Shown piece by piece: positions 7,831-16,187 of a DNA stretch of 64,000 nt. Location: assembly GCA_022702545.1 (NCBI GenBank), contig JAHRBC010000003.1, positions 2,604,001 to 2,668,000 on the forward strand. The letters run 5' to 3'. Numbering within the stretch: the first letter of the stretch is position 1; every line of letters starts with the position of its first letter. The stretch comes from Phycomyces nitens. Lineage: Eukaryota > Mucoromycota > Mucoromycetes > Mucorales > Phycomycetaceae. The translations under genes were made by a program, and so were the position numbers. The notes under the pieces were generated by a model. That model ran no database searches, was not told the origin of the DNA, and saw only the letters and a program-made list of their open reading frames with translations.

Positions 7831-8089
7831 TGGAGGGAAATGATCAACTGTCAAAATCCGACATGATGTTGTACACGTACTCCTTCTAAACCAATATTGC
7901 CACGAGGGAGACGTCTTCTTACTCCGTCTATCGCGTGTTGACCATCTTGATTAGGTACCGGCCAGAAACCCCCCCAAAAAAAAGTATGCCTTGTGCACAA
8001 GTATAATTATCAATGTTCAATGCATTTCTCTCTTTCTCTCTCTTTTTTTTTTATTGTGTGGGAATGTATTGTGTTTGTTTTATTTGATC

Positions 8090-10307
8090 TTAATAGGGAC
8101 GGTATTGACTATGGTTTCTTGAGCTTTGGGACGCGTGAAGTGCTCCTCCACCGCCACTAGGGCTGGCTGCGGAACCAACGTCGTTGCCATAGGCACGAGG
8201 GGCTCCATAGGATGAACGGTCTCTCGAGTCTCTCGAAAACCGTCTTTCTTCTCTTGGTCTGCTGTCGTCTTCTTCAGCGCGTCCATATTCCTCGCCCTCA
8301 TCCTCTCTGTAGCCAGCCTGATATCCGCCAGGACCTTCAGCATAGGCACCAGGAGCTCCTCCGGCTCCTCCGGCTCCATTGGCCCGTCCATAATAGCCTG
8401 CTCCAGCGGGTGCGCCCATGTAGCCGGGTGCACGGCCGTAATAAGCAGCTGCCATGTTATAGTTTCCATAGCCACCATACATGTTTCCGTACATGTTGTT
8501 AAATCCACCATAACCACCTCTTCCAGCACCACCTCCAACTGGGCTGCCATAAGCAGCTGCACCCGCATACCGGCTGTTGGGCATGTAACCTCCGCGTCCT
8601 GCCCCGCCAAAGCCAGGTGCGAAGCCACCAGATGCGGGAGCGTTTCGCATCTGCTTCGACTTTGGCATTGCCTTCTTTACTTCAATCTAAAAAAAAAAAA
8701 GCAATAGTTCAGATTAGATCCACATGTATAATAAGTGCATTTATTTACCGGTTTTCCTTTGATGGACAACATGGGATGACGAAGAGCTTCATCAACTCCA
8801 TTGCTGCTCTCAAATGTAATGAAGCCAAAACCACGCGGTCTGCCAGTGTCACGGTCTGTCATGAGAGTGGCATCAGTAACCTTGCCAAAGCGAGTAAAGA
8901 ACTCCCGGAATTCCTCTTCATCAACTTCAGCAGAGATTCCTCCCACAAAGATCTTTTCAGTCTTTTCTTGTTCTTCGCGTGGGATTGCGCGCTTGGGGTC
9001 AATCTATACAGAAAGACGAGGAAAAACAAATTGGGGCATATGATAAGTTTGCTCCAACTTAAAATATATATACACACACGCGCACACACACACACTTGGA
9101 AACTACAACTTACTCGTTTGCCATCCAAATAATGGTCCTGGCTTACAATGGTATCGACTACATTGGTATCCAGCATAGTGAGGAAACCAAAGCCACGGGA
9201 GCGTCCAGTGGCAGGATCACGCATGACAACGCAGTCAGCGACTTCTCCAAACTGCGCAAAGTATTGGCGCAAAGAGTCTATATACATATATATACACACA
9301 AGATTGTACATGTGCTTGAATCAATATACCGCCTAAACCTCTTGTAGCTTGTTTTTGTGTGTGTGATTTGCTTTTGTGCTCTCAAGCCTTGCTTCTTTAA
9401 CCCTAATTTTTCCCCTTGTCTTTTCTCACAGAAACCATTCCATTTTCGACGCTTACCATCGGTAGTTTCCCAATTGAGACCTCCGACAAACATCTTTCTG
9501 TATTTGCAAGAGCGATACGTAAACAATATGAAGAAAAAGAGGAATATAGCGAGGATTAATTACTGTGCTATCAACCAAAAAATACCACTAAACCTGGGAT
9601 TCGCTAAAGAGAGAGATTGGAGGATCTAAGCTATAGCCTTGGATCTTGTAGAGTATTTGATTGAAGAAAAAAAATATTCTTTCTTTCTTTCTTTCTTTCT
9701 CTTTTTGTCTGTCTGATTGTCTGTCTGTCTGATTGTATGTATGTATGTATGACTCTGTGTGTGTGTGTGCGTATCTTCCTACTTCTTGCTACACTCTTCT
9801 TCTGGACCTTGACAGGGTGGGACAATCTCTTTGCGTACAGCTTATTCTCTCTCCTTCTCTCTTTATCTTGCTCGATTTCCCGCATCTCCTTTTGTCTTTC
9901 ATTTTCTCCTTTGTTTGCTGTTGTCCAGCAAATAAGAAAAACAACAATTGAAAACTTACCCTTCATCTTGATTGGCTGCACTAGCCACGGAAGGTGCTCT
10001 CGGCTGAGAAGCGTCGCCTTCCTCATAAGGAGCAGCTGGTTGGCGCATCTGGCGTTGCATCATTTGCTGAACTTGGTAAGGACTGTTGTTCATCTGCTGG
10101 AAGTTGCGGTAGTTGTTGTAGGGGAACCCGTTTTGCTGGAATCCATTCCAGTTTTGGCCCATGTTTTGTGGTGGCTGCTGCTGAGGATGCTGTGGTTGGG
10201 TCTGCTGTGTTGGTGGTTGCGGTTGTTGTTGCGGTTGCTGAGGCTGCTGCTGAGGTTGTTGCGGCTGTTGTTGCGGCTGCTGAGGTTGCTGCTGCTGAGG
10301 TTGCTGC

Positions 10308-10342
<35 letters not shown>

Positions 10343-10633
10343 TTGAGGCTGCTGTTGAGGTTGCTGGTAACCTTGATCCTCTTCCTGAACATCCAACGCG
10401 TCTTGATACTCGTGTTTTGGCCTTTCGGTTTGTGTTTCTGGATTGGCAACAGTGGTCTGGGAAGCAGCAGGATCTGCTACTTGGGAAGGATCATATTCAC
10501 CTTCATTAGGCTTTGAGGAAGTGGCATGAGCAGGCTCCTTGTAATCATCAGTGTAGATATCCGCGTTTGCGTAAGAGTCTTCCTTGGCACCATTGTAGAC
10601 ATTGTAAAGCTCATCATCAAAATCGTCAGACAT
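8090..10633 (-). CDS. HRP1/Nab4-like RNA-binding protein with two RRMs
   Basis: hnRNP-type protein, closest to yeast Hrp1 (cleavage factor IB), which binds UA-rich enhancer elements for mRNA 3'-end formation and shuttles between nucleus and cytoplasm. Five exons (10633-9960, 9497-9457, 9277-9114, 9003-8749, 8686-8090) give 576 residues. Order: acidic start MSDDFDDELY; Gln-rich region with an almost pure Q run (about residues 90-150); RRM1 with RNP2 KMFVGGL and RNP1 RGFGFL; linker IDPKRAIPREEQ, a strong Hrp1 hallmark; RRM2 with KIFVGGI and RGFGFI; Gly/Tyr/Ala-rich tail with RGG-like repeats, a probable arginine-methylation and phase-separation region. The N-terminal CAG tract also creates long meaningless antisense frames. 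Confidence 0.93.
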
Positions 10634-11634
10634 GATTTATAGATTATAAGAGGAAATGGACTTGCAAAAAAAAATCAAAAAAAAGAAACAAAAAATCAAA
10701 GAGTCAAGCAAGTCAACGTAAAGAAGGTGTCCTCTTTTTCTTTTTTTCTTTTTTTTTTACTTTGGCTTCTAAATAAAAAAAAAATTCGCGGGTGGGTAGA
10801 TAAAGGCTATTGGCACCCCTGATGTCCGCTTATGTTGCGTCATGATATGTGACGTGTAGAAGAACTTTTTTTTATATATATTTTAAAGCGGATACCAAAA
10901 TGCGTGGTTTGGCCAATTGCAAATATCATGCGTTGACAAGTTCAAGAGTGGCAAGGCTGACCAGAGAATTATGGCGAGCACAATTGTGGGTGTGTATTGG
11001 GATTTAAGCCAATGAGAAAAAAAAACCATTGTAAGGGCAGAATTCCAGTTTGGCCGAATTGGAAATCTCATTGAATTCACCATTGTAAATTCCCGCAATG
11101 ATATTTGGCTCAAACTTATGATTACAGAGCGCTAAAAAGCTTAACCTGTTGGTGAGAATATTTATAGCGTACTAATTGATGACGTGAACTCAAGGGATAT
11201 CGTATTCCCCGTATTGCTTGGCAGACTTAAAGAGAGGTTTCATACCTTGCTATCCAACAAATTGCCCCCTTTTTATGTACATATTCCAAAAAAATAATAT
11301 ATAGACATTTATGTTGTCAAGTCCGATTAAAATCAAGAATAAATACAAATTGAAAGGACCCGTTCGTTTTCTCTTTAATATCATGTAGTGATTAGAGCCA
11401 TGAACCCTACAACTGACGGGTGTTCATAAAGAGTATCCCACATGGCCGATGCCACAAGAATAAACAACTCAAACCAAGATGGATCTTTAGATAGGTGATG
11501 TCATTTATGTGTGAGCATTTTATTTTATTTATTTTGTATAATAAAATACATACAATTTAATTTAATTTCTATTCCAATTTTTTCCTTTTTTTTTTTTTTT
11601 AATTGGCTTGCTTGGACCAACATCAAGATTACTA
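10634..11634. other. Intergenic, divergent promoters
   Basis: Separates HRP1-like (minus) and the UPF0014 gene (plus), so it holds both 5' regions. Long poly-T/poly-A tracts occur at 10730-10780 and 11580-11600. No exon recognised. Confidence 0.45.
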
Positions 11635-13021
11635 ATGCCAACGTCTCTCTTGCTTGAGTTGACGGGATTAGTTGCCAATGGCACCTTGGCCGATTCTCCT
11701 GAAAAGGTGATCCCAACCCTCACCTGGGTCAATGTCGCCTTTGCGTCTTCTTTTATACTTGTAAACGGTACGACTGAAACATAGTCCAACGTACACTTGC
11801 TCATTAAGATTCTTTTAAACATTAGGTATAATCTCGGTCTTTCTTGGCCTTCGTCTGGAAAAATCCCTAATCATTGCTGCTGTCCGATGCCTTATCCAAC
11901 TCACGATCATGGTACGCAAATACTCTTACGTATTCAGGCCAACAAGTCTTACGGAATCCGAATCTTTAGGGCTACATACTCGAGGACGTCTTCAAGGCTC
12001 GCCACCCAGCGCTGGTTATGCTGATGACCTGTAAGTTTTGGGCGGTCCAGAATGCTTTTATTTACCGTCTCTTTCTTTTTTTCATTTCTTTTTTTTTTGC
12101 TAGTCGTCCTCATCTTCCTTGGTGCCTATGAAACGGTGTACAACAAGTCCAAACTAACTTACAAAGGCATGGTAAAGCAAGAAATGAACGATCAGTAATG
12201 CGCTGATTCAACTTTATCTGATTTTGATGTTGCGGATCTATGATTCTAATCATATTATATTTAATGTGTGGCAGTTTATGTCAGTGTTAGTGTCAACTGG
12301 CTTTTCGACTCTGTTTATTGGCATCATTGGTGCCAGATGGGCCATGCGCCAAGACCCCTTTTGGATACCCGAGACATTTATTCCTACAATGGGCATGCTG
12401 CTGGGAAACATGATGAGTGGCATGGCAGTTGCCCTCAGCAGCTGTCTCTCAAGTCTCACAACCAACAAAGAGCAAATGGAGACCTATCTGGCCTGTGGTG
12501 CCAATAGATGGGAAGCCGGACGCTCTATTGCCATTGAGGCCGTCAGACTGGCAATGTTGCCAACAATCAACCAAATGTCTGTGATTGGCCTTATTTCCAT
12601 TCCAGGCATGATGACTGGTCAGATTCTTGGTGGTGCATCTGTAATGAATGCTGTCCGTTACCAACAGATCATCATGTTCCTCATATCTGCAAGCACTGCA
12701 TTGGGTGTCCTTAGCGCTGTTGTCGTAAGTTGCTCTCAAAAGGAGAACTGTCTAAAGCCAACCAATTGACTAATCAATTGATTATGTATAAAAAAAAAGG
12801 CTTGCATTCGTGTCATGATTGACAATCACCACCGATTGAGACCTGAGCGTATTCAGGAAGGTCGGGCCAGTTTGTTCCAGGACATAAAGGGCGTGATTGT
12901 AGCTTCCTGGAATATGTTTACCAGGATATTGTGCTGCAGGAAGAGACAGCAGGAATATAAAAAGGTAGAAGAGAATGATGATGAGGATGACCAGGCCCAG
13001 CGCAGACCTCTCCTGCGCTAA
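11635..13021 (+). CDS. UPF0014 (FetB/STAR2-like) membrane permease
   Basis: Multi-pass membrane protein of the UPF0014 family, the permease half of the bacterial FetAB exporter and plant STAR1/STAR2 (ALS3) transporters. Six exons (11635-11767, 11826-11911, 11970-12030, 12104-12171, 12275-12724, 12800-13021) give 339 residues. Diagnostic stretches: LTWVNVAFASSFIL, SLIIAAVRCLIQLT, TLFIGIIGARWAM, and the block PTMGMLLGNMMSGMAVALS, ACGANRWEAGRS, LISIPGMMTGQILGG. The C-terminal exon adds a cytosolic tail with a CCRKR cluster and an acidic run. No ATPase gene lies nearby, so the nucleotide-binding partner must be elsewhere or absent. Substrate is unknown; metal or nucleotide-sugar transport is suggested only by relatives. 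An extra upstream exon cannot be excluded. Confidence 0.85.
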
Positions 13022-13773: not shown

Positions 13774-15650
13774 ATGGAAGCCCAGCGTATCAAGCACTTT
13801 AAAGACACCGTCCTTGCCTCTAGCGATGGTGTGCGGGCAAAGAAGTGGCTATTGGCCTATCATCGAGACGTAGTTCAGTCAAAGGAAAATGTCCATCGAT
13901 CGTTTAAGCGAAGAGAAATCCTGGTCAATGGCCAGCCAATCGAAGAAACCAGGATTCTCAGGGAAGGGGATATAGTAGAGGTCAACTATAATCAGACTAT
14001 TGAAGACAATACTCGAATGGAGAATGTTGAGCTGGATATTCGATACCAAGACAAACATCTGGCTGTTGTTTGGAAAGCACCTGGTCAAGTATGTAAAAAA
14101 AAAGATGAAGGGGAAAAAAAAAGCATTTGCTCACCAGTCTTCTTCTTCTTCTCTTTTTTTAACAGAACTTTGGAGACTATGAAAAGGCTATTCTCTATGC
14201 GCTTGGCCTTGACCATGATTCAATGCAATGTGTGTATATGCTTCAAAAGGCAGGATCCGGTTTGGTAAGCGAGTGTGTTTTATAGTCATTATTCACAACT
14301 CCTTTCCTTATAGTTGATTATAGCCAAAACTCAGGATATTCAAAAGGCTCTCTTGGATATCTATGAGTCTGGAAACATGACGATGGGAATGAGTGTAATG
14401 TGCCATGGGGAGGTACCAAAAGACTTTTTGTCTAGTGTTCCAGATCTTGGAAATGTGTCGGTCCTGAACAATGTAGATTTGATGATGGAGAATGAGGATG
14501 AGGAAGATCTAGGTATAATTGCAAGAACAAGAGCAAGACCCTTTGATCTCGAATCGATCATCAAATCAATCACTGTACAGATCGTCACTCGATCGAATCA
14601 AGCAGATCACTTGTCCACACTCCATCTAGATCTCCCAACACCTCTGCAGAATTCAGAGATCCGACGATTGTTTTACTTGACTGGCTACCCTATTATTGGC
14701 AAGTCAATCTACACACGGTACCTCAAGTCAAGCAGTAAAAAGGGTCTCTGCATGTCCTTGACTCATCTCGGCTTTATACACCCTGTTACTCAACAGCCAC
14801 TCGAATTCAAGGTTGCTGAACCCCTAAAGTTTGCTCATTTGCGAGAACGCGAGACAAAGTTCTGGCAACGTCGACGAGATGCTGAAGAGGAACAGCTCAA
14901 ATATGCCGGTGTAGATGACGTCGACAGAGGAGATTCCAATAAGCCATTGGCCTATGTGCTTGGAGAAAAGGTAGCTTTGGCTGACCAGCTACAAAAAAAA
15001 TTCTAATCTATGCCAAACAATTGCAGAGATTCTTTGGACTCTGCTTCAAGATTGACGAGTCATGTCTGGTGCCTCGACCGAGTTCAGAGATATTGGTAGA
15101 GGCTGTGCTGGAACAGCTTGCACAGAGACAGCCAGCAAGAGTACTGGATGTTGGTACAGGCTGCGGCAATCTGCTATTATCCATCCTCCACAACTCTGCC
15201 CAAAGCACAGGAATGGGAGTTGATATTAGTGAGGCTGCGCTGGAAGTGGCTAGACAGAATGCAGGGTTACTTGGGTTGGAAGATCGGGTTGGATGGATAT
15301 GTAAAGATATGGCATTGATGAAGGATCCTGTGGAACTATACGATGTCCTGGTGTGCAACCCGCCTTATCTTTATCGAAAGAATACCAAGAAGGAGGCTCA
15401 ACAGATGGCTCGCCTGAGTCATGAGCCAGCCGAGGCGTTGTTTGCAGGAGAAGAAGGGTTTGAATTCTATCGGATTCTGCATTCCATTGCCCATCGATTG
15501 GTGGTTGGACGGAATGGAAGAGTTGTTTTGGAATGTGGAAAGGGAATGATGGACAGGGTCAAGGAACTCTGGTCTGACTGGAGAGTGGTGGAAGTGCGTA
15601 AGGATCGTCAGGGTTGGGACCGCTGCCTGGTACTTGGGAATGACGATTAA
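13774..15650 (+). CDS. Fusion: S4 + degenerate RluA-type pseudouridine synthase + PrmC/HemK methyltransferase
   Basis: Four exons (13774-14088, 14166-14264, 14314-14970, 15027-15650) in one continuous frame give 564 residues. Residues about 15-75 resemble an S4 RNA-binding domain (EILVNGQPI, LREGDIVEVNY). Residues about 85-150 follow the RluA core (KHLAVVWKAPGQ, then SGLLIIAKTQ), but the catalytic block HRLDxxTSGLL reads YMLQKAGSGLL, so the essential Asp is Gln132. The C-terminal part is a PrmC/HemK-type class I methyltransferase: PLAYVLGEK, LVPRPSSE, SAM loop DVGTGCG (398-404), catalytic NPPY (468-471), and EPAEALFAGEEGFEFYR. PrmC enzymes methylate the GGQ glutamine of release factors; the usual helical N-terminal domain is replaced here. 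The methyltransferase is probably active and the synthase part probably binds RNA only. Target unknown. Confidence 0.88.
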
Positions 15651-15714
15651 GTGTTATTATTTATGCGACTGCGGAATCTTGCCATTTGTATTCTCTTTCT
15701 TTTTTGATATTACA

Positions 15715-16187
15715 ATGAACTATCCAAACTTTAGTGTGATCTCTGGACGAATGAGGAAGCCTAGCCTGAAAAGAAAAGATGCTTTCCAGGTAGATGAGGT
15801 ACAAGATGCGTTGCCTACACCACCAAGATGGAAAAAAATGCTTGTTCTGGTGGCTGTGCTTGGTCTGCTTTGGTGGGATATACACAGCTGTATTGGAATG
15901 CAGCGACTCTCGGGCGCACTCCTGCCACCCAATCAACAGGGAGAGCGAGTTGCGTATGTGTGGATCCCGGTAATGCAGACACTAGAATATTATTATTATT
16001 ATTATTATTATTATTGCCATCATACTTATTAAGCTGTGAGTAGAAGATCGATAGGATGTGTTGCCTGGACAGTGCGACATGGACTGTCCTGCAAGTGGTT
16101 CCATGGGTTGTGCTCCTGTGTGTGGTGTTTGTCTTGGCATGTAAAATGGAATGGTTGCACGGGAAAATAAATGGCAAGAAGGAGTGA
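15715..16187 (+). CDS. Small two-pass membrane protein, unknown function
   Basis: Exon 1 (15715-15969) splices at CCG|GTAATG to an exon starting at 16044 or 16047, both in frame, ending at TGA 16185-16187; about 131 residues. It has a basic, soluble start, a hydrophobic segment (MLVLVAVLGLLWW), a short loop, then a second strongly hydrophobic segment (VVPWVVLLCVVFVLAC) and a basic C-terminus ending NGKKE. The lysines near the end could act as a retrieval signal, which is speculation. The intron holds a (TAT)n microsatellite at about 15988-16015 that would read as poly-Tyr if unspliced. I do not recognise the family. The gene starts only 64 bases after the fusion gene stops, on the same strand. 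Confidence 0.6.

Follow-up and report, generated by a model that had tools for sequence, protein, structure and literature searches.

A conserved fusion of an altered RluD-type module with a PrmC/HemK-type methyltransferase in early-diverging fungi

The 23S ribosomal RNA (rRNA) pseudouridine synthase RluD acts at helix 69, beside the position of the release factors. In Escherichia coli K-12, the same variant of release factor 2 (RF2) relieves the defects of both rluD loss and prmC loss (PMC5373646), which makes a link between the two functions plausible. Two PrmC homologues are described for eukaryotes, one acting in mitochondria and the other in the cytosol (PMC8904536), and the vertebrate RluA-type protein RPUSD3 has lost the catalytic Asp and shows no noticeable activity (PMC12716993). 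Here we describe a gene of Phycomyces nitens (Mucorales), at positions 13774 to 15650 of a 64,000-nucleotide stretch (the window; contig JAHRBC010000003.1, positions 2,604,001 to 2,668,000, from an assembly of 49 Mb in 11 contigs), that combines both kinds of protein. An S4 domain, an RluA fold that has lost its synthase motifs, and a PrmC/HemK methyltransferase that retains its own are joined in one conserved protein, and the same genome carries a separate Mtq1 and a likely Mtq2.

Splicing out three introns leaves a single open frame of 564 amino acids plus stop. All three are GT..AG and of phase 0 in the genomic sequence, in agreement with the first-pass annotation of this DNA, which had placed them at these positions with correct phases. 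The gene is laid out as follows.

13774 to 14088, + strand: exon 1, residues 1-105, with the first strand, the S4 domain, and the start of the RluA-like domain
13822 to 13998, + strand: S4 domain, about residues 17-75, from profile alignment to RluD-type proteins and a structure model
14023 to 14823, + strand: RluA-fold pseudo-synthase domain, about residues 84-308, with introns 1 and 2 inside
14089 to 14165, + strand: intron 1, phase 0, GT..AG
14166 to 14264, + strand: exon 2, residues 106-138, carrying the altered motif I (YMLQKAGSGL)
14244 to 14246, + strand: codon CAA of Gln132, replacing the catalytic Asp, from profile alignment and sequence
14265 to 14313, + strand: intron 2, phase 0, GT..AG
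14314 to 14970, + strand: exon 3, residues 139-357, with the remaining RluA-like domain, the linker helix, the fusion join, and the first part of the PrmC domain
14824 to 14904, + strand: long linker helix, residues 309-335, from the structure model
from about residue 349, in exon 3, + strand: PrmC/HemK methyltransferase domain, from family profiles
14971 to 15026, + strand: intron 3, phase 0, GT..AG
15027 to 15650, + strand: exon 4, residues 358-564 plus stop, PrmC/HemK methyltransferase
15357 to 15368, + strand: NPPY motif, residues 468-471

Exon 3 alone encodes the sequence from the RluA-like segment LIIAKT... through the PrmC segment ...NKPLAYVLGEK, and the fusion is therefore independent of splice prediction. 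The join is also spanned by 28/28 rows of an alignment of members from many genera (A1). Each half occurs as a separate protein elsewhere, which could point to a gene model that merges two adjacent genes; with the join inside one exon and every A1 row crossing it, such an artefact is extremely improbable, and we reject it. As such, the earlier claim that S4, RluA-like, and PrmC domains share one spliced frame stands, and the two separate genes that it had allowed for are not what the genomic sequence contains, since exon 3 itself crosses the join. The window protein also matches P0002, a public protein from P. nitens (100% identity over 99%), with the C-terminus as the sole difference. P0002 ends in CLVNELSKL, with NELSKL encoded at 15714, presumably via an extra 3' intron (region 15631-15731), and reading straight on to the stop at 15650 yields CLVLGNDD (compare CLVLSNE in Phycomyces blakesleeanus and CLVLEKED in Spinellus). 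Given its resemblance to these two species, the window C-terminus is preferred and that of the database entry is probably wrong.

The S4 domain and the RluA fold follow each other in the order found in RluD. Specifically, a profile-profile alignment yields an RluD-type match that spans S4 and the whole synthase domain up to its end in 283 columns (probability 99.8%, expectation value (E) 2.3e-30). In Pfam, at E up to 1, the N-terminal half of the window protein is unmatched, all 20 families matched starting at residue 376 or later. In the profile alignment, Gln132, within YMLQKAGSGLL (residues 129-139), shares a column with the HRIDK Asp of RluD-type proteins, which bears out the replacement of the catalytic Asp by Gln reported from the first reading of the sequence. 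A larger alignment (A2) includes every fusion-type row except P0004 and P0040 (45 of 47), and 11 of the 45 are gapped at this column because the proteins are partial; the 34 readable rows carry Gln (26), Glu (5), Met (1), Leu (1), and Asp (1). The Leu belongs to P0028, which has an odd and probably wrong start. No named fungal member among these 34 has Asp at the catalytic column, and the only Asp is that of P0069, a metagenome relative whose sequence begins just ahead of the motif, in which Gly stands in the motif-II Tyr column, Pro takes the position of the HQIR Arg, and GRTHQIR is absent. A misaligned Asp nearby, the case named at the outset as one that would overturn the claim, is rejected on the profile alignment and on this tally. 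The window protein has no Asp within 8 residues of the column, and the Asp two residues upstream of it (INDIQKAASGL) in 7/34 rows, all of Mucorales type (P0012, P0015, P0016, P0019, P0024, P0025, and P0039), is not a catalytic equivalent because the following Lys and SGL fix the register.

Other parts of the signature have changed as well. The motif-II Tyr column has Met in the window protein (Met164) and in 33/45 A2 rows, with Tyr in 1/45 (P0045), and GR[TS]HQ[IL]R is found in 0/45, while the Lys that follows the Asp column is retained in 33/34 and the Arg of HQIR in 44/45. In A1, some residues around the old motif positions are invariant or nearly so (K133, S232, R255, K281, and G282 in 28/28; N233 in 26/28). 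P0002 scores 43.7 bits with TIGR00005 (RluA), under the cut-off of 192.7. Two further RluA-type genes in this genome, which serve as an internal control, retain the Asp (NRLDRLTSG and HQLDYATSG). In these alignments the changes recur among members in a consistent pattern, the RluA-like domain remains under constraint, and pseudouridine synthase activity has probably been lost. At residue 280, in exon 3, P. nitens, P. blakesleeanus (P0003), and Spinellus have Lys, and the other 27 of the 28 A1 rows have Asp there in a conserved DKGL; being common to three species, the Lys is hardly a sequencing error.

The methyltransferase half appears intact, as had been proposed from its NPPY, with NPPY and S-adenosylmethionine motif I present in 45/45 A2 rows. 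P0002 reaches 143.4 bits with TIGR00536 (HemK family; cut-off 115.5), a threshold exceeded by six of the seven fusion proteins scanned (P0069 has 103.0), and PrmC is the best-scoring family among those tested. PrmB-type identity is rejected, because P0002 scores 109.1 bits with the PrmB (L3 methyltransferase) profile (cut-off 229.7) vs 185.7 with that of PrmC, and because PrmB falls outside the fusion group in the tree below. At E up to 1, the window protein has no match to the usual N-terminal domain, PrmC_N (PF17827). Of the 44 families matched across 28 members, PrmC_N is not among the 25 most frequent, i.e. it occurs in at most 3/28. Precomputed domains include it in 0/46 rows P0002-P0047 vs 59/66 other rows (P0048-P0114 without P0069).

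The window gene is not Mtq1 itself, since a canonical Mtq1 is encoded by a separate gene of 300 amino acids in the same genome (positions 1098-2106 of locus L008, on contig C1 of the assembly, G000). Its PrmC_N match is partial and under the cut-off (22.2 of 23.4 bits), and the gene has a GC-AG intron (1397-1502 of the locus). An exon with NPPY at position 514500 of contig C10 is the best match to the Mtq2 model, as a single exon and under the cut-off (47.5 of 87 bits), and is likely, from its sequence, to belong to Mtq2. With a separate Mtq1 and a likely Mtq2, the fusion is an additional PrmC-class gene, the third visible in this genome.

This fusion of S4, pseudo-RluA, and PrmC domains is a conserved family in several early-diverging fungi. 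A protein search lists 46 full or partial members (P0002-P0047). Thirty-four are assigned to fungi, i.e. three Podila (Mortierellales), Piptocephalis (Zoopagales), Coemansia (Kickxellales), and 29 others that we take to be Mucorales genera (the orders of four species were looked up). Median identity to P0002 is 51% for both S4 and the methyltransferase, and 38.5% and 43% for the two parts of the RluA-like domain. Each search scored only 7995-7996 candidates, too few to conclude that the fusion is missing from Dikarya, chytrids, Glomeromycotina, or other eukaryotes. Two further searches brought in no wider set of organisms. In one, RluD-type proteins took up the best 120 of 175 places and known members, P0005 among them, were missed; in the other, P0069 as query recovered its own sequence and proteins of PrmC type at E up to 1e-10, with no fungal members.

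A tree of 49 methyltransferase domains includes 16 fusion rows (15/28 A1 members and P0069), 30 PrmC-type rows (30/60 other proteins, those fitting the cutting pattern, most of them only presumed bacterial), E. coli PrmC and PrmB, and Mtq1 of this genome. One branch with support of 100/100 has the 16 fusion rows on one side and all others on the other; P0069 (1.76) and Mtq1 (1.62) have long branches, and their placements are therefore unsure. Among the proteins retrieved, P0114 (507 amino acids) is another RluD-type fusion, with S4 and an RluA domain with intact Asp joined to a guanylate kinase domain, and in P0075, P0095, and P0107 a release factor continues in frame into PrmC-like sequence, either as adjacent genes read together or as a true fusion.

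We put a probability of about 0.45 on the reading that the fusion is a third PrmC-class methyltransferase of early-diverging fungi, in which the pseudo-RluD half docks on large-subunit rRNA and the PrmC domain methylates a ribosome-associated glutamine. The RluD-type module without its synthase signature occupies the place of PrmC_N and would act as a docking domain, most likely with affinity for large-subunit rRNA or the pre-60S particle. Docking would place the PrmC domain near its substrate, possibly a Gln of a GGQ-type factor or of a ribosomal or assembly protein. In 8/9 members shown, the S4 part is slightly basic (e.g. net charge +4 in P0002, +5 in Podila P0042, and +3 in Coemansia P0047), and neutral in P0024, a shortened model. 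Inspected by eye in A2, the N-termini start at the RluD-like first strand and have no visible presequence, which favors the cytosol. A bolder version, which we consider rather unlikely, is a third eukaryotic N5-glutamine methylation system, where pseudo-RluD would read large-subunit rRNA, possibly in the helix 69 region, and PrmC would mark a new ribosome-bound protein; two functions genetically linked via RF2 in E. coli would then be physically united.

Several observations weigh against the docking methyltransferase as proposed. Mtq1 and the likely Mtq2 already cover the known GGQ factors, and the RluA-like half lacks a strong positive charge (net values of its two parts -4/+5 in P0002, -10/+1 in P0042, and -8/+4 in P0047), which speaks somewhat against RNA docking. 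The Coemansia S4 part keeps 20% identity to P0002 vs 37% for the methyltransferase (26% and 24% for its RluA-like parts). Whole RluD (2ist) superposes only at a root-mean-square deviation of 12.1, so that the arrangement of S4 and synthase domains differs or is flexible. P0069 has the Asp and P0045 the motif-II Tyr. TIGR00005 at E 0.001 matches 4/7 scanned fusion proteins (P0002, P0005, P0042, and P0012) but not P0047, P0046, or P0069. Finally, the cut-off of the PrmC equivalog TIGR03534 (199.1) is reached by 0/7 fusion proteins (139.9-185.7, with P0002 highest), and Mtq1 of the same genome is likewise under it (194.7).

Some of these points suit a protein-binding scaffold that replaces PrmC_N, with the enzyme methylating an ordinary GGQ factor alongside Mtq1 or Mtq2 (e.g. 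a mitochondrial release factor, an MRPL58- or MTRFR-like factor, or eRF1) and no RNA docking. The weak charge of the RluA-like half, the missing PF17827, and the best score for PrmC all speak for it, and human HEMK1 alone serves four GGQ factors (PMC8904536). We nevertheless regard it as unlikely, given the slightly basic S4 and the N-termini without visible presequence; moreover, known relatives use the S4 and RluA folds to bind RNA. If the two folds instead hold nucleic acid for an N6-adenine-type RNA or DNA methyltransferase, the substrate would be of another kind, a prospect that we rate as quite improbable. Slightly more improbable still is a bifunctional protein in which the altered RluA pocket has gained a new activity or ligand. 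The fixed or nearly fixed K133, S232, R255, K281, G282, and N233 would be unlike random decay, but they predict no known chemistry and may merely support fold or RNA, and RluD-type proteins likewise show little or no variation at the positions equivalent to K133 and R255.

Elsewhere in the window, an open reading frame upstream of the gene (12188-12769) resembles part of what we take to be a UPF0014/FetB-type permease, and another with a long Gln-rich stretch lies at 9956-10636 on the - strand.

A conserved third homologue with a built-in rRNA-enzyme module devoid of its catalytic motifs would bring a new substrate under glutamine methylation, or offer a new way to direct this mark to the ribosome, and if the docking reading is true, the family would be a clear case of an RNA-modifying enzyme converted into a guide domain. 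Among the open-licence papers listed on HemK/PrmC with pseudouridine synthase, RluD, S4, or Mucorales/Mucoromycota, none describes this architecture in its title or the start of its abstract, in keeping with the statement of the first-pass annotation that it knew of no such enzyme. Both halves come from known families; the combination, the absent PrmC_N, and the lost synthase signature set the protein apart. Like bacterial PrmC/HemK and mitochondrial Mtq1/HEMK1, it has the catalytic fold, NPPY, the hairpin, the EP..AL block, and best scores with that family; unlike them, it has S4 and pseudo-RluD and no detectable PrmC_N, and in the tree its rows are separated from those of PrmC type and from Mtq1 of its own genome. 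PrmB belongs to the same superfamily and has a ribosomal substrate (uL3), but the fusion scores lower with PrmB than with PrmC and excludes PrmB from its group, and it differs from Mtq2/HEMK2-Trm112 by a weak HemK2/MTQ2 profile score (29.6 bits vs a cut-off of 87). With RPUSD3 it shares an RluA-type protein without the catalytic Asp, which is Gly in RPUSD3, and the accessible text on RPUSD3 mentions no methyltransferase part (PMC12716993). Finally, the fusion resembles RluD in having S4 followed by an RluA-fold domain, and differs from it by Gln or Glu for Asp in 31/34 readable rows, by the loss of GRTHQIR, by a motif-II Tyr that is mostly Met, and by the attached methyltransferase.
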